Part shown: positions 29,620-62,035 of the stretch, piece by piece
Layout: each line of letters opens with the position of its first letter
Position numbering within the stretch: position 1 is the stretch's first letter
NCBI RefSeq assembly: GCF_036231945.1
Contig: NZ_CP109599.1
Location: 558,001-622,000 of the forward strand
Direction: 5' to 3'
Length of the DNA stretch: 64,000 bases
DNA from: Streptomyces sp. NBC_01429
GTDB taxonomy: Bacteria; Actinomycetota; Actinomycetes; Streptomycetales; Streptomycetaceae
Program-made: the position numbers and the translations under genes
The notes under the pieces: generated by a model
Told to the model about the DNA's origin: nothing
The model's database searches: none
What the model saw: the letters and a program-made list of their open reading frames with translations, nothing else

Positions 29620-29654
29620 GCCTTGCCTTTCCGTCGAATCGGGTACCACGGTCC

Positions 29655-29675
29655 TCGGCGGCGCGGTGCCGCCGA
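29655..29675. terminator. Hairpin after the CocE-type hydrolase gene
   Basis: TCGGCGGC and GCCGCCGA form a perfect 8-bp stem around a 5-nt loop, immediately after the hydrolase stop (29678, minus strand). It could end or attenuate the NRPS/PKS operon transcript before the GNAT gene. The stem is short and no T tract follows. Confidence 0.4.
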
Positions 29676-29677
29676 CC

Positions 29678-31651: not shown

Positions 31652-32865
31652 CGCTCCGCCTTCCCGGCCGGCGCCGCCCGGCCGACCGGCGGATCGGACC
31701 GGTGCAGTGTCTCCGGGCCGATCCGCGCCACCTCCGTACAGCCGACCAGGCCCATGGTCAGGTCGAGGTCGGCGAGCAGGCCCCGGACGACGTGCCGCAC
31801 CCCGGCGGCGCCGCCGAGGGCGAGACCGTAGACGTAGGGGCGGCCGAGCAGTACGGCACGGGCGCCCAGGGCCAGCGCCTTGAACACGTCGGAGCCGCCG
31901 CGGATACCGGAGTCGAAGAGCACCTCCGTCTCCTCGCCGACCTCGGCCACGACATCGACGAGCGCGTCGAGGGCGGCGACCGCTCCGTCCACCTGGCGCC
32001 CTCCGTGGTTGGAGACCACGATGCCGTCCATCCCGGCCTCCACGGCCCGGCGCGCGTCCTGCGGGTGCAGGATGCCCTTGAGCACGATCGGGCCGTCCCA
32101 GTGCTCCCGCAGGAAGCCCAGTTCGTCCCAGGTGTGCGCCTTTCCGCTGAAGATCGGCAGCCACTGCATGGCGGCGGCGCGCGGGTCCTCCTCGGCGGGA
32201 CGGTCCAGCCGGGAGCGGAAGACCGGATCGGAGAGCGGGATGGCGACGCCGTTGCCGCGGATGAACGGCAGATACGCCTGGTCCAGGTCGTGGGGGCGCC
32301 AGGCCAGCTGCCAGGTGTCCAGGGTGACGACGAGGGTCGTGTACCCGGCGGCGCGGGCCCGCTTGAGGATGCTGGCGGTCACCTCGTCGTCGTGCGGCCA
32401 GTACAGCTGGAACCAGCGCTGCCCGTCGCCGTTGGCCTCGGCGGCCTCCTCGATCGTGTACGAGGACGCGGTGCTCAGCACCATCGGTACACCGGTGGCC
32501 TCGGCCGCGCGGGCGGTCGCGAGTTCGCCGTCCGGGTGGACGACGGACTGCACGCCGATGGGGGCGAGCAGCACCGGGGCGGCCAGTTCGCTGCCGAGCA
32601 CGGTGGTGCGCAGGTCACGGCCGGTGGCGTCGCGCAGCATGCGGGGGACGATCCGGTACGCGTCGAACGCGGCGCGGTTGGCGCGGGCGGTGGCGCCGGT
32701 GCCGGCCGCCCCCGCGACGTACCAGTACGGCTGGGGGCCCATGCGGTCGCGGGCCGTGTCCTCCAGGGCCGACAGGTCCGTGGTGAACGGCGGGACCCGG
32801 TCTTCCAGCCCCCTCATGTAGATCTCGAACTGGTACTCCGCGAAACCGGGCCGGGGCGCTGCCAT
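31648..32865 (-). CDS. FMN-dependent alpha-hydroxy-acid oxidase/lactate 2-monooxygenase-like
   Basis: A 405-residue TIM-barrel flavoprotein starting at ATG 32865 (GAAGGAG upstream; a longer frame from 32898 is less likely). Family motifs are YWYVAGAAG, APVLLAPIGVQS, LSTASSYTIEE, QLYWPHDDE, VLKGILHPQDAR (flavin Lys), IVVSNHGGRQVDG (catalytic His, Arg) and FDSGIRGGSDVFKALALGARAV. The length and the QSVVHPDGE variant favour lactate 2-monooxygenase-like proteins. The same superfamily supplies Hmo of hydroxyphenylglycine biosynthesis and MftD. It overlaps the CocE-type gene by 4 bp, placing it in the NRPS/PKS operon. Confidence 0.9.
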   Translation of the reverse strand: MAAPRPGFAEYQFEIYMRGLEDRVPPFTTDLSALEDTARDRMGPQPYWYVAGAAGTGATARANRAAFDAYRIVPRMLRDATGRDLRTTVLGSELAAPVLLAPIGVQSVVHPDGELATARAAEATGVPMVLSTASSYTIEEAAEANGDGQRWFQLYWPHDDEVTASILKRARAAGYTTLVVTLDTWQLAWRPHDLDQAYLPFIRGNGVAIPLSDPVFRSRLDRPAEEDPRAAAMQWLPIFSGKAHTWDELGFLREHWDGPIVLKGILHPQDARRAVEAGMDGIVVSNHGGRQVDGAVAALDALVDVVAEVGEETEVLFDSGIRGGSDVFKALALGARAVLLGRPYVYGLALGGAAGVRHVVRGLLADLDLTMGLVGCTEVARIGPETLHRSDPPVGRAAPAGKAER

Positions 32866-32925
32866 GCGTTCTCCTTCGTCTTCTCGGATCCGCGACACCG
32901 GGGCTCCGGCATCGGGGGAGACAGG

Positions 32926-33261
32926 TCAGGGCTTGTGCGGGGGGTGTTCGTCCTGGCCGCCGGGAGCCGGTCCCGGGCTCCGGGCCATACCGATCAGGAG
33001 CAGGGCCAGTTGGGCGCCGGACGGTCCCAGCGCGTCCCGGTAGGAGCGCAGCACGGCGTTCTCCCGCGCCAGGTCCGTGCTCGGACGCCCGGCCGCGCGA
33101 CGGACCCGCCGCAGGCGCCGGTCCTCGCGCAGGCGCAGCTCCACCAGCCGGATGAGGTCGCCGTCCAGGTCCCGCAGCCGCTCCTGGTGCCGTTCCACGT
33201 CCTCGTGGGAGGTGTCCTCGTGGGAGGTGTCCAGGCGCGCCCGCGCCGGGCGTTCGCTCAT
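32926..33261 (-). CDS. Chorismate mutase-like (AroQ-type) helical protein
   Basis: A 111-residue protein, ATG overlapping the NRPS stop. Residues about 25-95 follow the AroQ helix pattern: RLRDLDGDLIRLVELRLRED, a basic RRVRRAAGRP, TDLARENAVL, and a final hydrophobic helix. Some active-site positions (first Arg, Asp/Arg of DLARE) seem kept, while the usual Lys of helix 1 looks like Arg. The N-terminus contains TSHED twice, from a 15-bp tandem duplication. In an NRPS/PKS operon that also has an AroA-like enzyme it may direct chorismate towards a precursor. The family call is moderate. Confidence 0.55.
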   Translation of the reverse strand: MSERPARARLDTSHEDTSHEDVERHQERLRDLDGDLIRLVELRLREDRRLRRVRRAAGRPSTDLARENAVLRSYRDALGPSGAQLALLLIGMARSPGPAPGGQDEHPPHKP

Positions 33262-36200
33262 GTCCGGTCCGTCCCTGCGGCCAGTTCGCGCAGCAACCGG
33301 CGGTAGACCGCCGCCACTTCCGCCACGAACGAGGAGGAGGTGCGCTGCGGCCGGTGCCCGAGCACGACTTCAGCGCCGCCGTCGGTCTCCGGCCATATCT
33401 CCGCCTCCACCTCGTGCAGGGCGTGTGCGGTGCCCGGCCGGACGAAGAGCGCCGTGCAGCCTTCGAGCGCGAGGTGCCGCGACGGGGCGTCCTGGAGGGC
33501 GAACAGCGTCTGGAAGAGCGGGTGCCGGGAGCGGTCGCGAGCGGGGCCGGCCGTCAGCCGCACGACTTCCTCGAACGGTATGTCCTGAGCGGCCAGCGCC
33601 GCGTGCACGCCGTCCAGGAGCGCGGGCAGGGCGTCCGTCGTGCCGTCGCCGGCCGGGCGTGTACGGAAACAGACGACGTCGATGAGGCAGCCGACGGCGT
33701 CGGCGGTGTCCGGGTGGTAGCGCTTGGCGATCGGTGCGCCGATCGCCAGATCCCGGTCTCCGGTCACCACGGCCAGCGCTTCGGCGTAGGCCGCGAGTGT
33801 CACCGCGAAGCGGGTGCTGCCCCAGCGGTGCGCGCGGGTCTCCAGCGCGGCCCAGTCCGCGGCGGAGATCCGGAAGGCGGGCGGGGGCGCCGTGCCGCCG
33901 CCGCCCGGGTCCGGCACGGTGAGCGGTGGTACGCCGGTCAGTTCGGCGGTCCAGAACGCGCGGTGCTTTTCGAGGCCGGTCCCGTCCACCTGGGCGCGGC
34001 AGGCCGCGAGGACGGTCGCGAGCGGAGCGGGGGGCCGGGCGTCCGGTGTCGCTCCCCGGAGGCGGGCGGCGTAGGCGGCGGAGAGGTCCTCGGCCAGCGG
34101 CCGTACCGAGCCGCCGTCGAAGGCGATGTGGTGGGCGACGATGCCCAGCAGCCATTCGTCGCCCGACGCCAACGGCGTGATGACGCACCGCCAGGTGGCG
34201 CCCGCCCCGATGTCCAGTGGCCGGCCGAGCGCGCGACGGAGCGTCGCCAGGCCCGCCTGCCGGTCGGCCGCCGGGTCCAGTTCCCGTACGTCCACCGGAC
34301 CGGGCCGCCCGTCCAGCAGCGCGACGGGGCGCCGGTCGAAGACGTAGCGGGCGTGCAGCGACTGGTGCCGGTGGTGCACGTCCGCCGCCGCGGCCCGGAA
34401 TGCCTCCGGGACGAAGGCTCCGGTCACCCGCCAGACCAGCTCGCAGTGGGCCGAGGTGTCGGCGGGGTCGAGCTGGTGCGCGTACAGGAATCCGCTCTGG
34501 GCGGGCAGCAGCGTCAGCGGCTCGCCGGACACCGGCCGGGGCTCGGCGGCGGGGGACCTCTCCGCTTCTGTCCGGCTCTCGATCCAGTGCGTCAGCTCCC
34601 GCACGGTCGGGCCGGCGATGAACACGGAGGCCGGGACGAGTACACCGGTGCGTGCGCCGATCCGCACGCACAGCCGGGCTCCGTCCAGCGAGTCGCCGCC
34701 CAGCTCGAAGAACGAGGTGTCGTACGGGACCGCGTCGTCCCCGCGCAGGACTTCGGCGAAGGTGCGCGCCACCTCGCCCAGCACCGAGCCGTCGCCGGTC
34801 CCGGGGGCGGGTCCGGGGCTGTCGCCGGACCGGGGCCGCGCGCCCGTCCGCCGGGTCACCAGGTCCAGCAGCGCACCGGTGTCCAGCTTGCCGTTGCCGG
34901 TCAGCGGGAACGCGTCGACGGCGGCGAGCGCCCTGGGCACCAGGTAGTCCGGCAGCCGCTCCGCCAACGCGTCGCGCACGGTCCGCTCGCTCACCGCCCG
35001 CCCGGCCACGACGGTGTACGCGGCGGCCAGCCCGACACAACCGCCGTTCTCCATCAGGGGGATGACGGCGCACCTGTGGATCCCCGGCAGCCCGGCCACC
35101 CGGGCCTCCACCTCGCCCGGCTCGATCCGGTGTCCGCGCACCTTGACCTGACGGTCGTCGCGGCCCGCGTAGTGCAGCACCCCTTCGGCGGAGAGGTGAC
35201 CGAGGTCGCCGGTCCGGTAGATCCGGCGCGGGCCCCCGAGATCGATCTCGGTGAAGCTCTTCGCGGTCTGCCCGGGATTCGCCAGATAGCCGTTGGCCAG
35301 GCCGGCGCCCGCGACGCAGATCTCGCCGGTCACGCCCGGCGGGCAGGGCCGCGACTCCCCGTCCAGGACGAACACTTCGGTACGGGGCACGGGACGGCCC
35401 AGGGGGATCTCCCCGCCGGCCCGGTGGTCGGCGGACGTGATCCGGTGGGTCGTGGTGAAGACCGTGTTCTCGACGGGTCCGTAGCCGTTCACCAGGGCGA
35501 TGCCGGGGTGTGCGCGGACGAACCGGTGGACGTGCGCCGGGGAGAGCCGCTCGCCCCCGACCAGCAGTTGGCGTACCCCGTCGAAGCAGCCCGGGTCCTC
35601 CTCCACGAACAGGTTGAAGACCGAGGCGGTGAGCCAGAGGGTGTTCACGCCCGCTTCGCGGACCAGGGCGCGCAGGCTGTCCACGGTCAGATAGGGCTCG
35701 TCGATCAGCACACTGGTGCCGCCGCCGAGCAGCGCCGACCACAGTTCCAGCGACGCGCCGTCCCACGGCAGCGGGGCGGCCTGGGGAATGACCGTGCCGG
35801 GGCCGGTGCCGACGAGGCCGGCCGGGCTGAACAGCCGTACCGTACCGGCGTGCGGGGACAGCACCCCCTTGGGGCGGCCGGTGCTGCCCGAGGTGAAGAA
35901 GACACAGCAGGTGTCCGTCTCCCGGACGGACGGGGCGGCCGGGGCGGCGGCCGACGCCGCGCGGGCCGCCGCCCGCGTCAGGTCCTCCTCGGGCACCCAC
36001 ACCGGGCGTGCCCAGCCCTCCGCGTGTTCCGGGGCTGCGGCGATCAGCGGTGCGCCGGTCAGCTCCGCGAGCTCCGCCACCCGGGGGCGGGGCCAGCGCG
36101 GGTCCATGGCGGCGTAGGCGGCGCCCAGTTTGAGCACGGCCAGCACGGTCGCCACGAACCGCGGCGACCTCGGCATCAGCACCGGCACGAGGTCACCGGC

Positions 36201-36380
36201 GCGCACACCGGCCCGCGCCAGCGCGGCCGCGAAGGCGTCCGAGGCGCGGTCCAGCGTCCGGTAGTCCACGACGGTGTCGCGGTGGATCAGCGCGAGGGCG
36301 TCCGGGTGCTCAGCGGCCCGCCTCCGGAAGATCTCGTGAATGACACCCCGGCCGTCTTCCGGGCCGTACTCGTCCGTCAT
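33258..36380 (-). CDS. Nonribosomal peptide synthetase module A-T-C
   Basis: A 1040-residue protein, ATG 36380 preceded by GGAGGGG and overlapping the MFS stop. The order is adenylation (about 10-530: TSGSTGRPKG, GYGPVEN, YRTGDLGH, GKLD), carrier (FFELGGDSLDG, near 570) and condensation (about 625-1025: intact AHHIAFDGGS). By-eye alignment to PheA gives the specificity code DGLWLGGVFK, close to valine-type codes. A terminal C domain after A-T is unusual. It either hands the chain to a partner carrier, such as the free ACP at 37789, or catalyses release. No thioesterase follows. Confidence 0.93.
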   Translation of the reverse strand: MTDEYGPEDGRGVIHEIFRRRAAEHPDALALIHRDTVVDYRTLDRASDAFAAALARAGVRAGDLVPVLMPRSPRFVATVLAVLKLGAAYAAMDPRWPRPRVAELAELTGAPLIAAAPEHAEGWARPVWVPEEDLTRAAARAASAAAPAAPSVRETDTCCVFFTSGSTGRPKGVLSPHAGTVRLFSPAGLVGTGPGTVIPQAAPLPWDGASLELWSALLGGGTSVLIDEPYLTVDSLRALVREAGVNTLWLTASVFNLFVEEDPGCFDGVRQLLVGGERLSPAHVHRFVRAHPGIALVNGYGPVENTVFTTTHRITSADHRAGGEIPLGRPVPRTEVFVLDGESRPCPPGVTGEICVAGAGLANGYLANPGQTAKSFTEIDLGGPRRIYRTGDLGHLSAEGVLHYAGRDDRQVKVRGHRIEPGEVEARVAGLPGIHRCAVIPLMENGGCVGLAAAYTVVAGRAVSERTVRDALAERLPDYLVPRALAAVDAFPLTGNGKLDTGALLDLVTRRTGARPRSGDSPGPAPGTGDGSVLGEVARTFAEVLRGDDAVPYDTSFFELGGDSLDGARLCVRIGARTGVLVPASVFIAGPTVRELTHWIESRTEAERSPAAEPRPVSGEPLTLLPAQSGFLYAHQLDPADTSAHCELVWRVTGAFVPEAFRAAAADVHHRHQSLHARYVFDRRPVALLDGRPGPVDVRELDPAADRQAGLATLRRALGRPLDIGAGATWRCVITPLASGDEWLLGIVAHHIAFDGGSVRPLAEDLSAAYAARLRGATPDARPPAPLATVLAACRAQVDGTGLEKHRAFWTAELTGVPPLTVPDPGGGGTAPPPAFRISAADWAALETRAHRWGSTRFAVTLAAYAEALAVVTGDRDLAIGAPIAKRYHPDTADAVGCLIDVVCFRTRPAGDGTTDALPALLDGVHAALAAQDIPFEEVVRLTAGPARDRSRHPLFQTLFALQDAPSRHLALEGCTALFVRPGTAHALHEVEAEIWPETDGGAEVVLGHRPQRTSSSFVAEVAAVYRRLLRELAAGTDRT

Positions 36381-37792
36381 CGCACCCCTCCGGACTCCAG
36401 CCGCCTCGGCCGGCCCTGTGCCTCTCGCGGCTCTTTCGATGCTTCTTCGTTCCCGGCGCCGTTCGCGTCCGGCGCCCCGCGCCCGCCTCTTCGCGCCTCG
36501 GGCAGCCGACGGCCCAGCAGCAGCGCGCCGGGGATACAGGTCAGAGCGCCCAGGCCCATCACCACCGCCAGCGGCCAGGCGCGGCCGCCGGCGAGCAGCA
36601 GGCCGCCCAGCAGCGGGCCCAGGACCAGGCCGGTCGACATGGCCGCGGAGTAGGCGCCGTTGTACCGGCCGCGTACCGCGTCGTGCGCCAGCTGGTTGAC
36701 CAGCGTGGGCAGCGCGACGGCGAGCAGCGCCTCGCCGACGGCGAAGACCGCCAGCGCGCCGATCACCAGGGCGGCCTCGACCGGCGTACGGCCGGTCACC
36801 GTCGCCAGCAGGAGCACCAGCCAGCAGCCGGCCCAACTGGCCGCCGTGGCGGCGAGGAGCACGGTGGGCCTGGCCCGGGAGATCCGCGTGATCGCCGCGA
36901 ACTGGATCAGCACGACGCAGCAGGTGTTGGCCACGAACGCCCACGCCATGATCCGGGCGTCCATGCCCCGCACCGCGACCAGCCCGGGGATGCTGGACTC
37001 CAGCTGCCCGTACCCGAACACCATGAGCGCGACGGTGAAGGCGAGGACCTTGAGCAGGGCCCGGTCCCGCAGGACGGCCCCGTAGCCGCGCGGGCCGGTG
37101 GTGGAAGCCGGGCCGGTGGCGGAAGCCGGGCCGGTGGCGGATCCGGGACCGGTGGCGGATCCGGGACCGGTGCTCGTGCTTGTGCTCGCCGCGACCGGGT
37201 CCCGCCGCCGGCCGATCGCGAGGACGAGTACCGCCCCGGCCACCAGGAAGGACAGCGCGTCGCAGACGTACAGCAACTGGAAGCGGCCTGGGTGGGCGGA
37301 CGAGGCGAAGATGCCGCCCAGCACCCCGCCGAGCCCGACCCCGGCGTTCAGCGCGACGAATTGCAGTCCGAAGGCCGCGGAGCGGGTCTCGCCCTCGGTC
37401 CGTTCCGCGATGACGATGCTCCATACCGAGACCATCGCGCCGTGGGCCAGTCCATAGGCCAGCCCCGCGGGCACAGCGCCCCGTACGTCGGTGACCAGGG
37501 CGAATCCGGCGGTGCCCACGGCGGCGCTCGTCATGGCCGCGGCGGCCGTACCGCGTACCCCGAAACCGTCGGCGAGCCGCCCCGCCAGCGGGCCGCCGAC
37601 CAGGGACGCCGCCGCGATCACCGAGATGACGGCGGTGGCGGTCCCCACGGAGAACCCGCGTACCCGGGTCAGGTACAGGACGAGGAACGGCTGCACCAGC
37701 CCGGTGCCCACCGCGCTGATCAGGTTGGCGCCCATCACCGCCCGGGTGCGCGGTGGCAGCTCGCGCAGGGCGGCCACGGACTGGATCGTCAC
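36377..37792 (-). CDS. MFS transporter, probable product exporter
   Basis: A 471-residue, 12-helix MFS protein with the drug-efflux-like pattern GPLAGRLADGFGVRG after helix 2 and GPLLGGLLLAGG later. The central loop contains GP[GA]S[AT]T repeated about four times, encoded by a 72-bp tandem repeat, and the C-terminus is a charged tail. It overlaps both neighbours by 4 bp inside the NRPS/PKS operon, so it most likely exports the product and may give self-resistance. Confidence 0.88.
   Translation of the reverse strand: MTIQSVAALRELPPRTRAVMGANLISAVGTGLVQPFLVLYLTRVRGFSVGTATAVISVIAAASLVGGPLAGRLADGFGVRGTAAAAMTSAAVGTAGFALVTDVRGAVPAGLAYGLAHGAMVSVWSIVIAERTEGETRSAAFGLQFVALNAGVGLGGVLGGIFASSAHPGRFQLLYVCDALSFLVAGAVLVLAIGRRRDPVAASTSTSTGPGSATGPGSATGPASATGPASTTGPRGYGAVLRDRALLKVLAFTVALMVFGYGQLESSIPGLVAVRGMDARIMAWAFVANTCCVVLIQFAAITRISRARPTVLLAATAASWAGCWLVLLLATVTGRTPVEAALVIGALAVFAVGEALLAVALPTLVNQLAHDAVRGRYNGAYSAAMSTGLVLGPLLGGLLLAGGRAWPLAVVMGLGALTCIPGALLLGRRLPEARRGGRGAPDANGAGNEEASKEPREAQGRPRRLESGGVR
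37097..37168. repeat. 18-bp in-frame minisatellite inside the MFS gene
   Basis: Four 18-bp units of the form GGTGGCGGATCCGGGACC (with small variations) lie head to tail in the central cytoplasmic-loop coding region, adding six residues each. Copy number would be expected to vary between strains without breaking the frame. Confidence 0.85.
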
Positions 37793-38109
37793 GGCCGGCC
37801 GGCTCCCCCGGGCCCGGCCGCCGTGCCGCCTCCGGCCGCCGTGACCGCGGCGCTCACGGCACCGAGCGTCGCGTTGTCCAGCAGGGTGCCGAGCCCCACC
37901 GAGACCCCGAACTCCTCGCGCAGCCGCTGCACCAGGGCCATGGCCTGCATGGACGTACCGCCCAGCGCGAAGAAGTCGTCCTCGGCGCCGAGGACGGCAC
38001 CGGCCCCCGCACCGGCCCCCGCGCCCGCACCCGGATTCGCACCGGGGTCGGGGCCGGGATCCAGGATCTCCCGCCAGATTGAGGCGACTCGCTCGTCGAC
38101 CGACGACAT
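37789..38109 (-). CDS. Free-standing carrier protein (ACP/PCP)
   Basis: A 106-residue phosphopantetheine-binding protein. The attachment Ser lies in FFALGGTSMQAM. An Ala/Gly/Pro-rich linker (PGAGAGAGAGAG) separates the first helix from the rest. It overlaps the MFS gene by 4 bp and starts 6 bp after the KASIII-like gene. It may carry the acyl or aminoacyl group handled by the KASIII-like proteins or by the terminal C domain of the A-T-C module. Confidence 0.88.
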   Translation of the reverse strand: MSSVDERVASIWREILDPGPDPGANPGAGAGAGAGAGAVLGAEDDFFALGGTSMQAMALVQRLREEFGVSVGLGTLLDNATLGAVSAAVTAAGGGTAAGPGGAGRP

Positions 38110-38115: not shown

Positions 38116-39033
38116 TCAGCCCTCCACGGCACGTAGCAGAACTGCGGCGAGGTGTACCGCACTTGATCCCAGCAGGACGACGACGGGGTACGCCGCCCGC
38201 GCGGTCGCGGACTCCGTACGGTCGATGAGGTTGATCAGCGGATCGCTGCCCAGGCAGTGCGCGACGCGCGGCACGTTGTCCTGGTACAGCTGGGACGGCG
38301 CGAAGCCCGCCTCGCCCAGGAAGACCCGCAGCGTGTCGGCCGCGAGATTGCTGGGCAGCACCGCGGCGACCTCACCCGGCGTCCGCCCGGTCGCCGACCA
38401 CAGATCCTCGAACAGGCCCTGGTACAGGCCCAGCTGGGCCTGGAGCCGCTTCCCGGCGGGGCCGGGGCCGAAGAGGTCGTAGGAGACCCGGCGGGCGCCG
38501 CCGACGATCTCCCACCCGCGCCGCTGCGCGGACACGACGGCCGCGGCCGCTCCGTCGCTCGCGATCGCCGAGCCGCCGAAGAGGACCCGGCTGCCCGGCT
38601 CCGCCGTGCTCGCCAGGTCGGCCGAGGCCACCACCACGGCCCGGGATGCTCCCGAACTCACCATCGCGGCGGCCATGTTGACGGCAGCGACGGCGGTGGA
38701 GCAATCGGCGAAGCCGAGCGTCAGCGGGTAGGCGCCGCGCATTCCCAGGTCGTCGAGCAGCTTCGCGACGGCGGCCTGGGACGCCTCGCCCCTGGGCAGT
38801 GACTCGGTGGCGAACAGGACGGTGTCGACCTCCGCCGGGTCGGCGCCCGCGGCCTCCAGCGCGTCTTCCACGGCCGGGCGCAGCAGGTCCAGGACATCCC
38901 CCTCGGCGAGCCGGTACTCGTCGAAAGAGGCCCCGGCGCGCGGCGGTTGCCGCGCGTACTCCGGCAGTTCGGCCACCTTGAGCCGCCGGGCTCCGAGGGC
39001 GGCGGCGCAGCCGTTCAGGTAGGCGGTGCTCAT
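38116..39033 (-). CDS. KASIII/FabH-like acyltransferase, copy 1 (altered active site)
   Basis: A 305-residue thiolase-fold protein with ATG overlapping the flavin reductase stop. The nucleophilic Cys is present at 111 (FADCSTA). The canonical HQAN motif is replaced by LPSN (226-229), so the active-site His is missing there, and the usual GN-S/T loop is replaced by RVAHCLGSDPLINL (His259). Copy 2 at 39575 shares the same changes. Such proteins may do acyl transfer or C-O/C-N bond formation rather than decarboxylative condensation. Substrates are unknown. Confidence 0.8.
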   Translation of the reverse strand: MSTAYLNGCAAALGARRLKVAELPEYARQPPRAGASFDEYRLAEGDVLDLLRPAVEDALEAAGADPAEVDTVLFATESLPRGEASQAAVAKLLDDLGMRGAYPLTLGFADCSTAVAAVNMAAAMVSSGASRAVVVASADLASTAEPGSRVLFGGSAIASDGAAAAVVSAQRRGWEIVGGARRVSYDLFGPGPAGKRLQAQLGLYQGLFEDLWSATGRTPGEVAAVLPSNLAADTLRVFLGEAGFAPSQLYQDNVPRVAHCLGSDPLINLIDRTESATARAAYPVVVLLGSSAVHLAAVLLRAVEG

Positions 39034-39578
39034 CCCACGCCCTCCGTCCGGCCCGGCTCCCCGGTCGTACGGAATGTGCCGCCCTCGAAGACCAGGGGCG
39101 GCGCCTGGCGCAGCGTCGCGCACTCGCGCACCGAGCCGACCACGATCACATGGTCGCCCACCGCGATGAACCGGGCGGAGTCGCAGGTGAAGTGGGCCAG
39201 CGATCCGGGCAGTCGCAGGCCGCCGTGCGGGGACGGCCGGCCGGTCTCCATCCCGGCGAACCCGGCGGGGCCCACCGGGCGGTCGGGGTCGGCGAACTTC
39301 CGGGCCAGCGCGTCCTGTTCGGCGGCCAGCACATTGACGACGAAGCCGCCGTACCGTTCGATCAGCGCTCTGATCCGGGCCCCCGCGCCCACGGAGAAGG
39401 ACACCAGGGGCGGCGCGAGCGACAGTGTGCCGAAGGAGTTCACGGTCATGCCGTGCACCTCCTCGCCCCGGCCGCCGGTGACGACGGTGACCCCGGTGGG
39501 CAGACAGCGGGCGACGGCGCGGAGTGCGGCGGTGGTGACCGGCCCCGTGGTGGCCCCGGCCGCGGTCCCGGCGTTCAG
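39030..39578 (-). CDS. Flavin reductase-like protein (HpaC/FMN-binding split barrel), CTG start
   Basis: The frame encodes RFP-type flavin reductase: VARCLPTGVTVVTGG, GMTVNSFGTLSLAPPLVSFSV, RKFADPDRP and HFTCDSARFIAVGDHVIVVG. The first ATG/GTG in frame (39458) would remove the conserved N-terminal strand. Upstream to the neighbouring stop the only start-like codon is CTG 39578, which overlaps the previous TGA as CTGA and has GGAGGGA six bases ahead. This gives 182 residues, a normal family length. It probably supplies reduced FMN to the luciferase-like monooxygenase at 41913. Confidence 0.85.
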   Translation of the reverse strand: MNAGTAAGATTGPVTTAALRAVARCLPTGVTVVTGGRGEEVHGMTVNSFGTLSLAPPLVSFSVGAGARIRALIERYGGFVVNVLAAEQDALARKFADPDRPVGPAGFAGMETGRPSPHGGLRLPGSLAHFTCDSARFIAVGDHVIVVGSVRECATLRQAPPLVFEGGTFRTTGEPGRTEGVG

Positions 39579-40552
39579 AAGGCTCCCTCCGGCGCCTCGG
39601 GCAGAGCCCTCGCACCCAGCAGCACGGCCGCGAGATGGGAGATCCCGGCGCCGAGCAGCACCAGGTGGCCGTCGGTGGCGCCGGTCGTGGACACACCGGC
39701 GGACTTCGCCTCGGCGAGCCGGTCGGCGAGGTTGATCAGCGGATCGCTGCCCAGGCAGTGCGCGATCCGCCCCACGTTGCCGAGCGCGAGCTTGTCGCCG
39801 CCGTAGCCGACGTCGGAGAGATAGATCTCCAGTACGTTGCGGGCGAAGTTGCTGGGCAGTACGGCGTGTACGTCCTCGGGCCGGAGCGGGTGACGTGCCG
39901 CGAGGCGGGCGAACAGCTCGCGGTGTGCGGCGACCCGTGAGGCCAGCTCACGCCGCGCGCCGCCCCCGTTGCCGGTCCCGGCGGAGGTGTGGTGGGCCAT
40001 GCCCAGCACCGGCAGGCCGGCCGCGGTGGCCGACACCAGCGCGGCGGCCGCCGCGTCGCTGGCGATGGCCGCGCCGCCCGCCACGACGCGCTCGCCGCCG
40101 GTGGCGTGGTCGGCCAGATCGCCGGAGACCACCAGGACATGGCGTGCGCTGCCGTCCCTGACGAGGGAGGCCGCTGTGCCCACGGCCGCCATGGCGGTGG
40201 CGCAGTCCATCAGCCCGAGTGTGCTCGCCGTGGCCCGGGTCAGCCCCGCCTCGGCGAGGAGTTCGGCGACATCGCGGTGGGCCGAGCGGTCGCGCGGCAG
40301 CGAGTCGGTGGCCAGCAGCACCAGGTCGACCTCGTCGCCCGGGACCCCGGCATCGCCCAGGGTCCGCCGGACGGCCTCGGCCATCAGCTCCACGACGGGC
40401 GCGTCCGACCACCGGTAGGTGTCGAACCCGGCGGCCGGGGAGGTCAGTTCGGCGGCGGTCCGCGGATCGGCCAGGAGTTCCGGCAGCTCGGCAACGGAGT
40501 CGCGGTACTCGCCCAGTTCGTAGGCCGGGGCACAGAGCCGTGCGGTGATCAT
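39575..40552 (-). CDS. KASIII/FabH-like acyltransferase, copy 2 (altered active site)
   Basis: A 325-residue paralogue of the protein at 38116, with the nucleophilic Cys at 117 (LMDCATA), LPSN in place of HQAN, and RIAHCLGSDPLINL in place of the Asn loop. ATG overlaps the stop of the free C-domain gene, and its own stop is shared with the CTG start of the flavin reductase. The two copies are clearly diverged from each other, so a heterodimer or two sequential reactions are both possible. Confidence 0.8.
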   Translation of the reverse strand: MITARLCAPAYELGEYRDSVAELPELLADPRTAAELTSPAAGFDTYRWSDAPVVELMAEAVRRTLGDAGVPGDEVDLVLLATDSLPRDRSAHRDVAELLAEAGLTRATASTLGLMDCATAMAAVGTAASLVRDGSARHVLVVSGDLADHATGGERVVAGGAAIASDAAAAALVSATAAGLPVLGMAHHTSAGTGNGGGARRELASRVAAHRELFARLAARHPLRPEDVHAVLPSNFARNVLEIYLSDVGYGGDKLALGNVGRIAHCLGSDPLINLADRLAEAKSAGVSTTGATDGHLVLLGAGISHLAAVLLGARALPEAPEGAF

Positions 40553-41916
40553 CCGTGTCCCCCTTCCGCGGCCTTCTCGGCGAGCGCCGTGAAGCGCTCG
40601 GCGATCCGCCGCGCGGTGGGCGCTTCGTACAGCTCGGTGTCGTACTCCAGCCAGCCCCGGGCGCCGTCCGGCCCCGGGTAGACGGCCAGCGTCAGGTCGT
40701 AGCGCGCGGTGCCCTTGTCCAGGTCCTCGGTGACCGCGCGGGCGCCCTGGATCTCCCGGCCGCCCTCCCCGAGGTTGTCGAAGACGAAGACGGCGTCCAG
40801 GAGCGGGTGGGTGCCCGGCACCCGGCGCTCCTCGGCGATCAGCTCGCCGGGGTGGGCGGCGTGGGCGAGTCCGGCCCTGGTGGCCGTGCGGGCCGCCCGG
40901 GTGCGCGCGGCGTGCGAGCCGTCGCCCGCGTCGCGCAGCCGTACCGGCAGCACGTTGAGGAGATAGCCGACGACATCGGTGGTGCCGGGCCGGTCCCGGC
41001 CCGCCGTGAACGTGCCGAGCAGCACGTCGTCGCGGCCTCCGTACTCGGCGAGCGCGGCCCAGGCGACGGCGAGCCATCCGGTGTACGCGGTGGCGGCCTC
41101 GCGCTGTGCCGCGGCGGCGATCCCGTCGGCGACCGCGCGGGGCAGGGTGAACTCCACCCGGGCGCCGCTGCGGCCGGTACCGGAGCCGCGGGGCCGGTCG
41201 GTGGGCAGCGGCGGCGGGGCTCCGGCGACCTCGGCCTTCCAGTACGCCGCCGCGGCCCGGCCCGCCGCGCTCTCCAGCAGGCGCCGCTGTTCGTGCGCGA
41301 AGCCGCTGAAGGGGGGCGCGGCGACCGGTCCGGTGTCCGCGGTCCTGGCCAGCTCGTCCAGCAGCAGCTCGAACGACCAGGCGTCGAAGACGAGGTTGTG
41401 CACCACGACCAGCAGCCATGCCCCGTCGGCCCCGTCTTCCGCCGGCCCTCCCCCGGCGGCCGTCCCCTCCGCGAGCGCGACCCGCAGGAGCGGGCCGTTC
41501 GCCAGATCGAACGGTTCGGCGGCCAGCTCGCGGGCGAGCGCGTGCGCCTCGTCGGCCCCCGCGCAGCGGGTGCGTACCACCCGGGGCGGCAGCCTCGGAC
41601 GCACCACCGGGCGGACACCGTCGCCGGTCCCCTCCCCGTCGCTCTCGAAGGTGGTACGCAGTGCCTCGTGGGCCTGGACGAAGCCGAGCACCCGCTCGGC
41701 CAGCAGGTCGAGGCCGACGGGAGCGCCGGTGAGGCGGACCACCTGGCAGACCACGTCCACCGGGCGGTCGCCCACCCAGCGGTGTGCCTCCCACAGCCGC
41801 CGCTGACCAGGTGTCAGTTGTGGCTGTTTTCGGGGTACTTGGGGAATGCGTTGACGTATCAGCGCCCGCTGCTCGGGGGTGAGAGCGGCGAGCCGGGCGA
41901 CGAGGTCGGCACTCAC
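40549..41916 (-). CDS. Free-standing NRPS condensation domain with altered HHxxxDG motif
   Basis: A 455-residue C domain with GTG 41916 overlapping the monooxygenase stop. Family motifs include LTPGQRRLWEAHR, AHEALRTTF, LLGTFTAGRDRP and VGYLLNVLPVRL. The core HHxxxDG reads HNLVFDA (173-179), so the second, catalytic His is Asn and the Gly is Ala. It is not a DxxxxD cyclisation motif. It may be catalytically unusual or a recruitment platform. Codons about 20-37 use AT-rich rare triplets (ATA, CGA, ACA, CAA), unlike neighbours. Confidence 0.88.
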   Translation of the reverse strand: MSADLVARLAALTPEQRALIRQRIPQVPRKQPQLTPGQRRLWEAHRWVGDRPVDVVCQVVRLTGAPVGLDLLAERVLGFVQAHEALRTTFESDGEGTGDGVRPVVRPRLPPRVVRTRCAGADEAHALARELAAEPFDLANGPLLRVALAEGTAAGGGPAEDGADGAWLLVVVHNLVFDAWSFELLLDELARTADTGPVAAPPFSGFAHEQRRLLESAAGRAAAAYWKAEVAGAPPPLPTDRPRGSGTGRSGARVEFTLPRAVADGIAAAAQREAATAYTGWLAVAWAALAEYGGRDDVLLGTFTAGRDRPGTTDVVGYLLNVLPVRLRDAGDGSHAARTRAARTATRAGLAHAAHPGELIAEERRVPGTHPLLDAVFVFDNLGEGGREIQGARAVTEDLDKGTARYDLTLAVYPGPDGARGWLEYDTELYEAPTARRIAERFTALAEKAAEGGHG

Positions 41917-42944
41917 GCGTAACGCCTCCGGAGTTCGTTGAGGTGGCTGAGACTCTCGACGACCAGGTCCTCGTCGACGCCGAAGTCGATCAGGCAGGCG
42001 ATCTCGTCGACGCCCATGCCCTTGAACCGGTCGACGACCTTCACGCAGGAGTCCGGGGTGCCGAGCAGCGCCCCCTTCTCGAAATACTTGTCGAAGGCGA
42101 ACTTGATCAGCTCGTCCTGGTCGGCGGCCGAGATGTCCCGGACGCCGGCCCCCGGCGCGAGGTTCTTCTTCTGCGAGTCGATGACGGTGAAGAAGGACCG
42201 CAGATAGTCGCTGAAGGGAGCCTCGACCGTCTCCCGTACCTCGTCGAGATCGGTGCCGATGAAGGTGTGCAGCATCAGCGTGACCGTGGTGCTCTCGGGG
42301 TCGTGCCCGTACTCGTCGAGGGCCTTGTAGTAGAGGGCGAGCTTCTCCGCCAGTTCCTCGTTGGTCATGTCGATGAGCGCGGTCAGCACATTGCAGCCGA
42401 GCCGCCCGGCCGTCTCGAAGGTCTCCGGGCTCTTGGTGCAGGTGAGCCAGATCGGGAGTTCGGGCTGTACGGGCTGCGGATGCAGCTCCACCTCGACGTG
42501 GTTGCCCAGGCCGTCCTGGACGTAGACCGGAGCGCCCTCCCACAGTTCGCGGATGGTGGTGACCGCCTCGAAGGTGCGCTGCCTGCGGTCCTGCCAGCCG
42601 TCCGGTTTGATGGCGAAGTCCAGCGGGCTGAAGCCGGTGGCGAGCGCGATGCCGGCGCGGCCGCGGGAGAGGTTGTCGACCACCGCCCATTCCTCGGCCA
42701 CCCGGATGGGGCTGTGCAGCGGCAGGATGACGCTGCCCGCCCGGATCCGCAGCCGCTGGGTGGCCATCGCCAGACCGGCGCCGAGCACCGAGGGGTTGGG
42801 GTAGAGGCCGCCGAAACGGTGGAAGTGCCGTTCCGGGGTCCAGATCGCGGTGAAGCCGTTCTCGTCCGCGTAGCGGGCCGCGTCGAGTACGAACCGGTAC
42901 TTGTTCTTCTCGTCGCCGGAGAAGAAGATCAGGCTGAAGTCCAC
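41913..42944 (-). CDS. Luciferase-like FMN monooxygenase (natural-product LLM, MupA/Atu3640 type)
   Basis: A 343-residue TIM-barrel protein with GTG 42944 and AGGAG upstream, starting 2 bp after the PKS stop. Motifs typical of the secondary-metabolite LLM family are DFSLIFFSGDE, FTAIWTPERHFH, GLYPNPSVLGAGLA, AGSVILPLHSPIRVAEEWAVVDN, GIALATGFSPLDF and IWLTCTKSPETF. Members use reduced FMN and O2, which matches the flavin reductase in the same operon. The expected step is hydroxylation or oxidation of a carrier-bound intermediate. Confidence 0.9.
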   Translation of the reverse strand: MDFSLIFFSGDEKNKYRFVLDAARYADENGFTAIWTPERHFHRFGGLYPNPSVLGAGLAMATQRLRIRAGSVILPLHSPIRVAEEWAVVDNLSRGRAGIALATGFSPLDFAIKPDGWQDRRQRTFEAVTTIRELWEGAPVYVQDGLGNHVEVELHPQPVQPELPIWLTCTKSPETFETAGRLGCNVLTALIDMTNEELAEKLALYYKALDEYGHDPESTTVTLMLHTFIGTDLDEVRETVEAPFSDYLRSFFTVIDSQKKNLAPGAGVRDISAADQDELIKFAFDKYFEKGALLGTPDSCVKVVDRFKGMGVDEIACLIDFGVDEDLVVESLSHLNELRRRYA

Positions 42945-42946
42945 GG

Positions 42947-45900
42947 TCAGCGCTCCTGTTCCTGCCGGGCTGTTCGCTTCCGGTCTGTCTCCCGCTCGCC
43001 GGTTCCCTGCGGGGCGGTCTCCTGCGGGGCCGTTTCCCGCGGGACGGTTTCCGGTGGGGCGGATTCCTGCGGGGCGGCTGCCTGTTCGGCCTCGGTCAGC
43101 AGCCGTTCGATCTCCTCCGGTCCGAGCCCGGACAGCTCGGCCGCCAGGGACTCGATGTCGTCGCCGCCGGGCCCCGCGTCCGCACGCGCGCCGTTCCCGG
43201 CACCGACCGCCGCCGCTCCGGCCCGCGTACGGGAGTCGATCCGCTCCTGCACGAAGCCGGCCAGCGCCCGCGGTGTCGGCGCCCCGAGTACGTCGGCGAG
43301 CGGCACCTCGGCCGAGAACTGGTCGCGGAGACTGGACAGCAGCCGCACGATCAGCAGCGAGTCGCCGCCGAACTCGAAGATGTCGCCGTCCAGGGAGATC
43401 TCCTCGCTGCCCAGCGCCCCTCGCACCAGCCGCAGCACCTGGTCGCTCAGATCGCCCGCCCCGTCGTCCCGCGTACCGTCGCCGGTGCCGCCGGCCGCCG
43501 TGACGCCCGTCGTCGGCCGCGCGATGCGCTCGTCGCGGACCCACTGGTCGAGCCGGTGTCCGATGTCCCAGGTGGAGACGGCCACCTGGGAGACGTCCCG
43601 CAGCGTCAGCAGCCGGCGGATGGCCTCCAGGCCCTCCTCGGGCTGGATCGCCTTGTCGTCCATGCTCCGGCCGATCGCGGAGATCGCCCGCTTCTCGTCC
43701 TGGTGGTGCTGCCAGACGTCCCAGGCCGCGCTGATCCACACCGTACGGTCCAGGCCGCGGTTGGCCCGCTCGGCGGCGGCGTCCATGAAGTGGTTGGCGG
43801 CGCCGTATCCGAGCAGCCGCAGCCCGCCGAGCACGCCGGCCAGCGAGGACAGCAGCAGGCAGAAGTCCACCGGGTGGTCGGCGAGGACGCGTTCCAGCGC
43901 GATCTGGCCGTGCGCCTTGGGCGCGAAGTGCCACTGGCACTGCTCGACGCTCGCCGCGGTGATCGCCCGGTCCCACTGCTCGCTGGGCAGCCCGGCCGCG
44001 TGCACCACACCGTCCAGGGCGCCGAACCGCGCGGTGACCCGCTCCACCGCGTCGCGCAGCGCGTCCTCGTCGGCCACGTCGGCGTGTACGAGGAACGGCT
44101 CGGTGCCGTCGGCCGCCAGGGCGCGCAGCCGGTTGACGCGCAACGAGGTGCCGTCGTCCTCCTCGTGCTCGGCCAGCCACGCGTCCCAGCTCTCGCGGGG
44201 CGGCAGCGGATCGCGGGTGAGCAGCGCGAGCCGGGCGCCGGGGCATTCGCGGCGCAGCCAGTGGGCGATGGTGGAACCGATCTCGCCCAGGCCGCCCGTG
44301 ATCAGATAGACGCCCCCGTCGCGCAGGCGGGAGGCGGCCTTGGCGGTCCAGTCGGCGCGTACGGGCTCCATGTCGGTGATCCAGCGGGTGGCACCGCGCA
44401 GCGTGGTGGCGATCTCGGGGCGGCGCGACCCGGCCAGTTCGGTGGCCAGGGTGCGCAGCGACCGGTCGTCCGGGGTCGCGGGGAGGTCGAAGTGCCGGGA
44501 GCCGATGTTGCCGTGTTCCTGGCCGATGACCCGGGCGGCGACGGAGAGGGAGACCAGTTCGGCGGCGGGTTCCGGCTCGGCCGGGCTGATGGCGTAGGCG
44601 CCCGCGCTGATGAGGTCGAGGTGCAGCGGGCGGGTGACGCCGTGCTCGCTGACCGCCTTGACCAGGGCGATCAGGCTGTAGAGGCCGTTTCGCTGGGCCA
44701 GTTCGAAGCGTTCCCTGCCGCGCCCGGCGGGCAGGGGGGCGGTGGACCAGGCGTGCACCACGCGGTCCGGCAGCCGGTCCTCGGCGAGCAGGTCCCCGAC
44801 GAGCCGGGTGTGGTCCTCCTCGGAGTCCGGCCGCAGCGTCCAGGTGTCGCCGTCGCGTCCGTAGGCGGTGCCCGCCGTGACGGTGAGCACCTCGCCGGCG
44901 AAGGCGTGTCCGGCCAGCCGCGCGGCGGTTCCCTCCGCGTCGGCGAACAGGAGTACGGGGTCGGCGACGGGTTCGGCGGTCGCGTCGAGCGTGCCGACGG
45001 CCTGCCGCCACACCGGGGCGGAGAACCACTCGTCCACGGGCAGCTTGGGTACGGCCGTGCCGCCGCCCGCGCCGGTGAGCGGTCCGCCGCCGGGCTCGAC
45101 CCAGTAGCGGGTCCCTTCGAAGGGGTAGGTGGGCAGCGGCACCCGCGCCCGCCCCCGGTCCTGGTAGAAGCCCTGCCAGCGCACGCTCAGGCCGGCCGCC
45201 CACAGCCGGCCGAGCGCCGCGGTCACCGCGGTCAGGTCGGCGCCGGCGTCCCGTCCGCGTGCCGTCGAGGTGAGGACCGGCACGCCGGTCTCGCGGTCCG
45301 GATGCCTGCGGGTGAAGGTGGCCAGCGTCTGGCCGGGCCCCACTTCGAGGAAGACGTGGTCGCCGTCGGCGAGCACCGTGGCGAGGCTGTCGGCGAACCG
45401 TACGGTCTCGCGCAGATGCCCGCCCCAGTAGGCCGGGTCCGTCGCCTCCTCGTCGCGTATCCAGGTACCGGTCCGGTTGGAGAGGAACGGAATCCGGGGG
45501 CGGCTCAGTTCGACGCCGCGCAGCACCTCGGTGAGCGGGCCGACCGCGGGGTCCATCATCGCCGAGTGGAAGGCGTGCGAGGTGACGACCTTGCGGTGCG
45601 CCACGCCGTCGGCGCTCAGCCGGGCGGTCAGCTCGCGGACGGCCTCCGCGGTGCCGGCGACGGTACACACGGCGGGCTCGTTGACGGCGGCGAGCGCGAC
45701 CTCGCCGCCGTCGAGATACGGGGTCAGCTCCTCGGGCGGGAGCATGACCGCGGCCATCACCCCGCGCGGCAGCCCGTCCACCAGCCGACCGCGCTCCGCG
45801 ATCACCCGCAGCGCGTCGGGCAGCCGGAACACCCCGGCCAGGGTGGCGGCGACGTACTCGCCGACGCTGTGCCCGATCAGCGCGGCCGGGCGGATGCCCC

Positions 45901-47866
45901 AGGCCATCCACTGCCGGGCCAGCGCGTACTCGACCGCGAACAGCGCGGGCTGGGTCAGCCGGGTGCGGTTCAGGTCGTGCGCCTCGCCCGTGTACCCGCG
46001 CGTGCGGGGATGGAGGGCGTCGCGCAGGTCCAGGCCGAGATGCGGCCGCAGCAGCTCCGCGCATTCGTCCAGCACGGCGCGGAACACGGGGAGCTGGCCG
46101 TACCAGCCCTCTCCCATGCCGGGGTGCTGTGCGCCCTGGCCGGGGAAGAGCAGGACCATCGGGCGGTCGGCGGGCTGCCCGGAGTCCTGATGGGTGAAGC
46201 GCGGATCGGCGGTGCGCAGGGCGCGTACCGCCGTGGCCCGGTCGGGGGCGGTGATCACGGCGCGGTAGTTGAAGGTACGGCGGCCGGTGGCGAGGGTGTA
46301 CGCGGTGTCGTCCAGGCCGGTGTCACCGAGGGCGGAGCCGTCGGGCGCGGCCCCGGTCTCCGGCTCCCCCGCCGGCGCCGTCTGCTCCAGATGGTCGGCG
46401 AGTTCCTGGCGCGCGGTCTCCAGCGCGGCCGGGGACTTGGCGGAGACCGGCAGCAGCACCACCCGCGGGGCGGGCGCGCTGCCCCGGGCCGCGGGGCCGG
46501 CCGCCGCGGCCTCCTCCAGGATGACGTGCGCGGTGGTGCCGCCCATGCCCGTGGAGGTGACCGCGCAGCGCAGGGGGCCGCCGTCCGGGGACTCCCACGG
46601 CTCGGCCCGGGTACCGACGCGGAAGCGGGTGCCCTCGACGGCACACTGCGGGTTCCAGCCGGTGAAGTGCGGGGTGGGCACCAGGGTGCGGTGGTGCAGC
46701 ATCAGAACGCACTTGATCAGCCCGGTGACGCCGGCCGCCGTGCTCAGATGGCCGAGGTTCGCCTTGACCGACCCGACGGTCAGCGGCGGCGCGCCCGCCA
46801 CCTGGTAGGACTGCGCCGCCGCGGCCAGCTCGATGGGGTCGCCCATCCTGGTGCCGGTGCCGTGCGCCTCCAGATAGCTGACGCTCGCGGGGGCCACGTC
46901 GGCCACGGCGAGCGCCTCGGCCAGTACGGCGGCCTGGCCCGCGACGCCCGGCGCGGTGTAACCGACCCGGTCGGCGCCGTCGTTGCCGATCGCGGAGCCG
47001 CGCAGCACCGCCCAGACCGTGTCGCCCTCGGCGAGCGCGTCCTCCAGCCGCTTGAGCACGACGACGCCGACGCCGTTGCCGAAGACCGTGCCGTCGGCTT
47101 CGGCGTCGAAGGGCCGTACGGTCCCGGACGCCGACGTGATCCCGTCGGTCTCGTGGACGTAGCCGGCCTCCTGCGGAAAGCGGAGCGCCACCCCGCCCGC
47201 CAGTGCCGCGTCGCACTCCTGCGCAAGCAGGCTCTGCATCGCCAGGTGTACGGCGACCAGCGAGGTGGAGCAGGCGGTCTGCACCGAGAGGCTCGGTCCG
47301 GTCAGATTGAGGTGGTAGGAGGCCCTGGTGGTGAGGTAGTTGGGGTCGTTGCCCATCAACGCGGACAGGTCCTCGCGCATCCGGGGCAGTGAGCCGTTGA
47401 AACCGCGCTCGCCGGTCAGCACGTTGTGCAGCAGATAGGTGCTGCTCAGCGCGCCGGCGAAGACGCCGATCCGGCCGGGGTACTGCTCGGAGTCGTGGCC
47501 GCTGTGCTCCAGGGCCGACCAGGAGGACTGGAGGAAGAGCCGCAGCTGCGGGTCCATCCGCTCGGCCTCGCGCGCGCTGAGGTAGAAGAACGACGCGTCG
47601 AAGAGGTCGGCGTCCTCGACCACCGAGGCCCGCCGGACGTAGCGGGGGTTGGCGAGCGACTCCGAGGGCACTCCCGCGGCGCGCAGCCGCTCCTCGTCCA
47701 CATCGGTGAGGTGTTCGGTGCCCGCCAGCAGATTGCGCCAGAACTCGGCGTGACCGCGGGCGCCCGGCAGCCGGCAGTCCAGGCCGACGACCGCGATCCG
47801 GCCGTCGAGGGCGGCGTCGGCGGGGGCCGCCGTGGCGTCCGTCTCGCCGTAGGGACGGTCAGTCAC
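42947..47866 (-). CDS. Type I polyketide synthase module KS-AT-KR-ACP
   Basis: A 1639-residue protein, GTG 47866 with AGGAGG six bases upstream and an 8-bp overlap with the A-T gene. KS (about 22-450) has Cys199 (TACSTS), His335 (EAHGTGT) and His373 (NLGHLS). AT has GHSVGEY and SHAFHSAM; HAFH predicts malonyl-CoA. KR has GGLGEIGS, Ser in LLSSLAG and Tyr in GYGAANHF but no LDD signature. ACP shows FEFGGDSLL. A charged, repetitive tail of about 100 residues ends the protein and may act in docking. No DH, ER or TE is present. Confidence 0.95.
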   Translation of the reverse strand: MTDRPYGETDATAAPADAALDGRIAVVGLDCRLPGARGHAEFWRNLLAGTEHLTDVDEERLRAAGVPSESLANPRYVRRASVVEDADLFDASFFYLSAREAERMDPQLRLFLQSSWSALEHSGHDSEQYPGRIGVFAGALSSTYLLHNVLTGERGFNGSLPRMREDLSALMGNDPNYLTTRASYHLNLTGPSLSVQTACSTSLVAVHLAMQSLLAQECDAALAGGVALRFPQEAGYVHETDGITSASGTVRPFDAEADGTVFGNGVGVVVLKRLEDALAEGDTVWAVLRGSAIGNDGADRVGYTAPGVAGQAAVLAEALAVADVAPASVSYLEAHGTGTRMGDPIELAAAAQSYQVAGAPPLTVGSVKANLGHLSTAAGVTGLIKCVLMLHHRTLVPTPHFTGWNPQCAVEGTRFRVGTRAEPWESPDGGPLRCAVTSTGMGGTTAHVILEEAAAAGPAARGSAPAPRVVLLPVSAKSPAALETARQELADHLEQTAPAGEPETGAAPDGSALGDTGLDDTAYTLATGRRTFNYRAVITAPDRATAVRALRTADPRFTHQDSGQPADRPMVLLFPGQGAQHPGMGEGWYGQLPVFRAVLDECAELLRPHLGLDLRDALHPRTRGYTGEAHDLNRTRLTQPALFAVEYALARQWMAWGIRPAALIGHSVGEYVAATLAGVFRLPDALRVIAERGRLVDGLPRGVMAAVMLPPEELTPYLDGGEVALAAVNEPAVCTVAGTAEAVRELTARLSADGVAHRKVVTSHAFHSAMMDPAVGPLTEVLRGVELSRPRIPFLSNRTGTWIRDEEATDPAYWGGHLRETVRFADSLATVLADGDHVFLEVGPGQTLATFTRRHPDRETGVPVLTSTARGRDAGADLTAVTAALGRLWAAGLSVRWQGFYQDRGRARVPLPTYPFEGTRYWVEPGGGPLTGAGGGTAVPKLPVDEWFSAPVWRQAVGTLDATAEPVADPVLLFADAEGTAARLAGHAFAGEVLTVTAGTAYGRDGDTWTLRPDSEEDHTRLVGDLLAEDRLPDRVVHAWSTAPLPAGRGRERFELAQRNGLYSLIALVKAVSEHGVTRPLHLDLISAGAYAISPAEPEPAAELVSLSVAARVIGQEHGNIGSRHFDLPATPDDRSLRTLATELAGSRRPEIATTLRGATRWITDMEPVRADWTAKAASRLRDGGVYLITGGLGEIGSTIAHWLRRECPGARLALLTRDPLPPRESWDAWLAEHEEDDGTSLRVNRLRALAADGTEPFLVHADVADEDALRDAVERVTARFGALDGVVHAAGLPSEQWDRAITAASVEQCQWHFAPKAHGQIALERVLADHPVDFCLLLSSLAGVLGGLRLLGYGAANHFMDAAAERANRGLDRTVWISAAWDVWQHHQDEKRAISAIGRSMDDKAIQPEEGLEAIRRLLTLRDVSQVAVSTWDIGHRLDQWVRDERIARPTTGVTAAGGTGDGTRDDGAGDLSDQVLRLVRGALGSEEISLDGDIFEFGGDSLLIVRLLSSLRDQFSAEVPLADVLGAPTPRALAGFVQERIDSRTRAGAAAVGAGNGARADAGPGGDDIESLAAELSGLGPEEIERLLTEAEQAAAPQESAPPETVPRETAPQETAPQGTGERETDRKRTARQEQER
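43003..43077. repeat. 15-bp in-frame tandem repeat in the PKS C-terminal tail
   Basis: Five imperfect 15-bp units (type TTCCTGCGGGGCGGT on the plus strand) encode the ETAPQ/ETVPR-like pentapeptides in the PKS tail. They lie downstream of the ACP, in a region that should tolerate length change. Confidence 0.8.
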
Positions 47867-56577: not shown

Positions 56578-56835
56578 TACTCGGTCCAATCGTCGGGCGA
56601 GGCGTTCCTCGCCGAAATTCGGGCGGTCGGTCTCGACCGTGGCGTGACGTTCTTGTCGGGTCGGCCGCCGGGGGCCGCCCTCGTCGTTTCCGGCTCACGC
56701 TGTACAGACCTGCGGGAAGTGGCCCCGCCCGGCAGGGTGGCCCCCGAGCCCCGTACATGCCGCTCCACCCGGGTCCGCCTTCGGGCCGCCCCCGGCGCCC
56801 GGACACCCTGGACGACGAGGCGCCTTCGCGGAGGT

Positions 56836-60229: not shown

Positions 60230-60415
60230 GCGGGATATCTCTTCCGGTGAGCGGGTGGATGAACGGCCGCCGGAGCGCGGCCAGGGCGTGTCCGCGAAGT
60301 GGCGCCGGGGGCCGGGAACGGAGCGGGGCCGGCGGCGTGCACCGCACGCGCGCCGTCCCGGCGCCGTCCCGGCGCCCGGTCCTCGTCCTCGGGACGCCGA
60401 GCGCGGACGCGGCGA

Positions 60416-60467
60416 GCGTGTGTGTCGCGTGTGCGTATGTGCCGTGTGCTTATGTGCGTGTGTGTCA
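60416..60467. repeat. GT-rich low-complexity tract between mftC and mftD
   Basis: About 50 bases consist mainly of TGTG, GTGCGT and TATGTG units (CA-rich on the coding minus strand), in the middle of the 274-bp gap between the mftC stop (60504) and the mftD start (60229). Short repeats GCGCCGTCCCG flank it at about 60350. It is the only non-coupled junction between mftB and mftF and could hold a processing site or internal promoter. Confidence 0.6.
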
Positions 60468-60503
60468 GGCGCCGCCGACCTGGCGGGACTTCGCGGACAC
60501 GGC

Positions 60504-62026: not shown

Positions 62027-62035
62027 GGGGGCTCC

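Follow-up and report, generated by a model that had tools for sequence, protein, structure and literature searches.

KASIII-like proteins with a Cys-His-Asp catalytic set have been described in several biosynthetic pathways, and the triads of CerJ, ChlB3 and AfcL, as well as mutants of them, have been published (PMC4425429, PMC9573744, PMC12186527). In CerJ, a Val occupies the position of the first His, and the loss of that His was taken as the loss of condensation (PMC4425429). Pau29 has a Ser-His-Asp set and an Asn in the first-His position (PMC4425429). The catalytic residues of ChlB3 are Cys113, His296 and Asp301, His296 being the counterpart of the second DpsC His (PMC9573744). Cys/His/Asp is likewise present in AfcL and AfcO; the former, a KASIII-like protein, catalyses peptide bond formation in an NRPS system that lacks C domains (PMC12186527).

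The window analysed here, a stretch of 64,000 nucleotides from the 8.08-Mb, Streptomyces-type chromosome of Streptomyces sp. NBC_01429, encodes two such KASIII-like proteins on the minus strand, KAS1 (39575..40552, 325 aa) and KAS2 (38116..39033, 305 aa), which are 46% identical in a pairwise alignment. The initial annotation had singled them out as a pair with LPSN for HQAN and a common AHCLGSDPLINL, both of which are indeed found there on the minus strand. From their sequences, we consider, with a probability of about 0.78, that they would be KASIII-fold non-decarboxylative acyltransferases rather than ketosynthases, with a triad of the CerJ/ChlB3 type, and that KAS2 would load the adjacent ACP. 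Both resemble defective starter enzymes of fatty acid synthesis but, as a known alternative catalytic set is present, most likely move acyl chains between carriers in an antibiotic-type pathway.

Active-site register and comparison with described systems

Both proteins score above the cut-off of PF08545, the N-terminal KASIII family, and their AlphaFold2 models align with ChlB3, CerJ and FabH at Z of about 31-32, which places them in the KASIII/thiolase fold. Genome-wide matches to the canonical C-terminal family, PF08541, include neither of them, and their scores for the NCBIfam FabH model TIGR00747 are 36.1 and 26.1 bits, against a cut-off of 292.1. The nucleophilic Cys is found in LMDCAT of KAS1 and FADCST of KAS2, and its retention, noted at the outset, holds for all 20 KAS1 and KAS2 sequences.

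The register of the other residues was set in three ways: the proteins were aligned with CorB and with the FabHs encoded in this genome, and a profile of 23 family sequences was aligned with FabHs of solved structure. P-S-N-(F/L)-A lies under P-H-Q-A-N without gaps, with Ser in place of the catalytic His and Asn in place of Gln. The His is thus lost, as initially proposed, but the Asn of LPSN is not that of HQAN. In the same three alignments, (A/G)-H-C-x-x-S-D lies under G-N-T-S-A-A-S, with a His in place of the catalytic Asn and an Asp five residues further. The stretch AHCLGSDPLINL, said to replace the Asn loop, is common to the pair, but that description overlooked the His of AHCLGSD in the very column of the FabH Asn and the Asp at +5. 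KAS1 and KAS2 therefore have Ser and His where FabH has the His of HQAN (His244) and the Asn of GN(T/S) (Asn274), and the family profile gives the same correspondence; with FabH they have in common the fold and the nucleophilic Cys, although their clade is separate.

The putative triad of KAS2 consists of Cys111, His259 (codon 38257..38259, minus strand) and Asp264 (38242..38244, minus strand), with Ser228 in the column of the FabH catalytic His. His259 occupies the column of FabH Asn274, which is that of CerJ His295 and ChlB3 His296, and Asp264, at His+5, corresponds to ChlB3 Asp301. His265 (39758..39760, minus strand) and Asp270 (39743..39745, minus strand) would play the same roles in KAS1, together with Cys117, Ser234 being in the FabH His column. 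Of the activities that had been envisaged for the pair, non-decarboxylative acyl transfer fits this putative Cys-His-Asp site best, and we found no support for ring-forming chemistry. The idea of a new active site was rejected because CerJ and ChlB3 have the same triad. It gives way to a testable assignment, in which the pair belongs to its own subfamily of KASIII-like acyltransferases with Cys-His-Asp.

ChlB3 of the chlorothricin pathway (7EQI) resembles the pair in that its triad has the His where FabH has Asn and the Asp at +5, and in its MNFSR/PSNFAR and HxxxSD motifs. That pathway also combines two acyltransferases, ChlB3 and ChlB6, with one discrete ACP, ChlB2; likewise, KAS1, KAS2 and an ACP are found together in 8/8 KAS2 loci. 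However, ChlB3 is about 16% identical to the KAS pair and sits on a separate branch, and the locus described here is a hybrid NRPS-PKS without a 6-methylsalicylate synthase. CerJ of the cervimycin pathway (3S3L), with identities to the pair in the same range (about 16-17% for CerJ/ChlB3), similarly has Cys-His-Asp and has lost the FabH His, replaced by Val in CerJ and by Ser here. CerJ attaches malonyl units to a sugar by ester bonds, whereas no glycosyl acceptor is evident at this locus. As for AfcL and AfcO of the AFC-BC11 system in Burkholderia, which we likened to the pair by description, they are KASIII-like acyltransferases with Cys/His/Asp that act together with carrier proteins during peptide assembly. 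Unlike AFC-BC11, which has no C domains, this locus harbours C domains, the KAS1-adjacent one being devoid of the catalytic His.

Gene cluster and proposed roles of the two proteins

KAS1 and KAS2 are part of a closely spaced run of minus-strand genes that extends from position 54994 downwards. Its first half codes for an EPSP-synthase-like enolpyruvyl transferase (53528..54994), a class III aminotransferase (52149..53450), an FrhB-like F420 hydrogenase/dehydrogenase beta subunit (50935..52155), a zinc-ADH/BchC-like oxidoreductase (49820..50935), an A-T loading protein with an unusual code that is conserved in all loci (47859..49823), a type I PKS module with a KS-AT-KR-T organization (42947..47938), a luciferase-like monooxygenase (LLM) of the MupA/Atu3671 family (41913..42944), a free-standing condensation domain (C; 40549..41916) and KAS1, whose start codon is ATGA-coupled to the C gene. 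KAS1 is followed by genes for a flavin reductase, KAS2, a discrete carrier protein with a PP-binding domain and a GGTS motif (37789..38109), an MFS exporter (36377..37792), an A-T-C NRPS with an intact HHIAFDG (33258..36374) and, at 29678..33261, a chorismate-mutase-like protein, an FMN-dependent 2-hydroxyacid dehydrogenase and a probably secreted S15 peptidase, the last three being present in some KAS2 loci. The S15 peptidase (29678-31627) is found in several loci with the A-T-C protein and the MFS exporter and could be prodrug-activating. A double-GNAT protein at the cluster edge (28657-29700, minus strand), conserved in several genomes, might be a self-resistance acetyltransferase. On the other side, the cluster is bordered by a mycofactocin-type operon (55732-63015, minus strand) with genes for an SDR, a GT2, a creatininase-like MftE, an MftD-like FMN dehydrogenase and an MftR-type TetR regulator.

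KAS1 was found in 8/296 congeneric genomes, this one included. Among 396 sampled genomes of the phylum there were no further orthologues, with a single remote relative at 28% identity; the named relatives are all from Streptomyces or an actinobacterium. The order of the ADH, A-T, PKS, LLM, C and KAS1 genes is constant in loci with enough sequence, and the EPSPS, aminotransferase and FrhB genes are upstream of this cassette in 6/6 genomes whose upstream flank was read. The conserved set at 49820-54994, from the EPSP-synthase-like protein to the BchC-like oxidoreductase, suggests a shikimate-derived amino acid starter for the A-T protein. The codes of the A domains, read by eye, matched none that we could name. 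We found no characterized cluster matching this locus in the literature. Nevertheless, Gene0445-0451 of S. albulus CICC11022 are seven adjacent, co-regulated and expressed genes with no known product, in the order F420 hydrogenase, Zn-oxidoreductase, A, KS-AT-KR, one gene, C, one gene (PMC9617413). They probably represent the same core operon, which was matched by described gene order, not by sequence.

KAS2 is present in eight loci, each of which also has KAS1 and continues with the ACP, MFS and A-T-C genes. In our window, 6 bp separate the KAS2 stop codon from the ATG of the ACP gene downstream, and no ACP was found in loci without KAS2. This invariable succession and the 6-bp spacing favour KAS2 as the enzyme that may charge the ACP, its likely acyl acceptor, which is the task of ChlB3. 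Conversely, four loci, one of them a 6.4-kb contig, have KAS1 and a flavin reductase and no match for KAS2 or ACP, and KAS1 therefore need not be the enzyme that discharges the ACP. In the mechanism that we propose, the His-Asp pair would activate the Cys. An acyl chain bound as a thioester to a carrier protein would move onto this Cys and from there, without decarboxylation, onto a thiol, hydroxyl or amine, in a ping-pong scheme such as that proposed for ChlB3. For KAS2, the donor might be a T domain of the assembly line and the acceptor the discrete ACP encoded alongside, as when ChlB3 loads ChlB2, and the A-T-C protein would then act on the ACP-bound chain. KAS1, whose gene directly follows those for the PKS, the monooxygenase and the C domain, would transfer an acyl group at a step shared by the cassette as a whole.

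The flavin reductase (HpaC/HsaB-like; 39030..39578, minus strand) does lie between the KAS genes, as annotated initially (Flavin_Reduct, E 4.8e-32). No ATG, GTG or TTG start covers its domain, the only listed one, a GTG at 39458, being inside it. Its start is likely the CTG at 39578, which overlaps the KAS1 stop codon (CTGA) and has the Shine-Dalgarno-like GGAGGGAG upstream. Most plausibly, the enzyme supplies reduced flavin to the LLM. A flavin reductase is absent between KAS1 and KAS2 in 7/8 KAS2-bearing loci and follows KAS1 in loci without KAS2. As its presence does not track that of KAS2, a functional tie to the KAS pair was rejected as positional.

The C protein next to KAS1 bears on the role of the latter. 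Its HHxxxDG motif is degenerate (HNLVFDA, at 41380-41400), and HN..DA, or PN..DA in two cases, is found in 11/11 loci read, the window and ten others, so that the catalytic His is replaced by Asn, whereas the C domain of the A-T-C protein has kept HHIAFDG. The C and KAS1 genes adjoin in 12/12 loci, and AfcL sets a precedent for peptide bond formation by a Cys/His/Asp protein. Because of the motif loss, this adjacency and the precedent, we tentatively suggest that KAS1 does the chemistry of which the C domain is incapable. KAS1 would make a C-N or C-O bond, with the C domain merely binding or positioning the substrate, and KAS2 would be left with carrier-to-carrier transfer. We hold this division of labour to be less likely than not, as some relatives of C domains may work with altered motifs, and this one is otherwise full length and conserved. 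It would refine the acyltransferase explanation, not contradict it. Somewhat more speculatively, condensation might be split, with KAS1 replacing the His-less C domain and its duplicate KAS2 feeding the product to the ACP for a further A-T-C step. This orphan cassette, with a His-less C domain beside an invariant KASIII-like acyltransferase, offers a tractable system in which to ask if NRPS condensation could be taken over by KASIII folds.

We consider it unlikely that KAS1 and KAS2 function only as a heterodimer of the PqsB/PqsC kind. They are adjacent paralogues that form sister clades, and KAS2 was never seen without KAS1, all of which would fit with such an assembly. Nevertheless, KAS1 occurs without KAS2 in the four loci mentioned above, and, unlike in PqsBC-type pairs, in which one partner is devoid of catalytic residues, both proteins have kept the full triad.

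Conservation, phylogeny and predicted structure

Acyl transfer by a Cys-His-Asp site is also in line with the conservation of the residues. The Cys, the Ser in the HQAN-His column, the His in the Asn column and the Asp at +5 are invariant in 12 KAS1 and 8 KAS2 orthologues. As all 20 retain them, the changes are not due to chance, which bears out the early view that the site is conserved rather than decaying. The same columns of the canonical FabHs of this genome (4/4) contain C, H, N and S. A further 23 relatives at a greater distance and 25 ChlB3-like proteins all have the His and Asp as well, with Cys or Ser as the nucleophile, and altogether they are kept in 68/68 aligned His-x4-Asp proteins. 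In an alignment of 23 sequences, most of them with 22-45% identity, only M1, G97, H259 and D264 are invariant; the chance that both CerJ catalytic positions would land among four invariant columns by random placement is about 1e-4. The His-x4-Asp of the relatives aligns onto CerJ (TGHVGAGD), ChlB3 (GHLGASD), NatS (GHTGAAD) and 9z38 (GHCGASD), and ChlB3 and 9z38 have in common an Asn-aromatic-(S/A)-Arg stretch, MNFSRE and MNYSRE beside PSNFAR. A C-terminal profile restricted to the KAS proteins gave a weak match to 9z38 in the PDB (E 0.12) in the same register. A TAL-repeat match of the low-complexity profile A2 was ignored.

That these proteins are decarboxylative or Claisen ketosynthases, forming C-C bonds and possibly rings with an unusual active site, would agree with their KASIII fold and the retained Cys. 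However, the replacement of both the FabH His and Asn, giving Cys-His-Asp instead, and the interpretation of the first-His loss in CerJ make this quite improbable. Decaying or purely structural KAS copies, which the FabH scores far under the cut-off might evoke, have a negligible likelihood in view of a triad present in 20/20 sequences, frames intact across species and orthologue identities of about 59-84%.

Our phylogenetic tree groups KAS1 and KAS2 as sister clades (100/100) within one branch that also includes 21 relatives (100/98). The ChlB3-like proteins are on their own, neighbouring branch (100/99), outside of which KAS1 and KAS2 fall, and the FabHs form a third (100/100), away from the pair; clustering with ordinary FabH, which would have spoken against the initial proposal, was thus not observed. 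If this tree, which has long branches, four FabHs as the outgroup and no CerJ, were rooted on the FabHs, the His-x4-Asp proteins would make up one clade with two main branches. Because the branches are distinct and long and the outgroup is small, we regard KAS1 and KAS2 as mechanistically of the CerJ/ChlB3 type and phylogenetically as a separate subfamily. By sequence comparison, the pair is a subfamily of its own, well apart from FabH.

The AlphaFold2 models, built from 14 aligned sequences, have pLDDT values of 75.4 for KAS1 and 84.8 for KAS2. The best Z scores of the KAS2 model are with ChlB3 (32.2), NatS (32.0), DpsC (31.6) and CerJ (31.4), tied with about 31 for FabH. As FabH, OleA, DpsC, ChlB3 and CerJ are within about 1 Z of each other, the fold search was discarded as a means to discriminate acyltransferases from FabH; the predicted models settle the fold, not the subfamily.

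Several relatives of the pair are annotated as '3-oxoacyl-ACP synthase'. As a rule, we propose that a His in the Asn loop, an Asp five residues on and the lack of the HQAN His denote an acyltransferase, not a ketosynthase. The same His-x4-Asp is found in a commoner family of Streptomyces KASIII-like proteins (L009-L023), with LNRC, H(P/L/N)NL and HCFAADPLINL motifs. Another adjacent pair of KASIII-like proteins with His-x4-Asp, one of them with Ser for Cys, is encoded in a congeneric genome (G257; L024, 169-2394).
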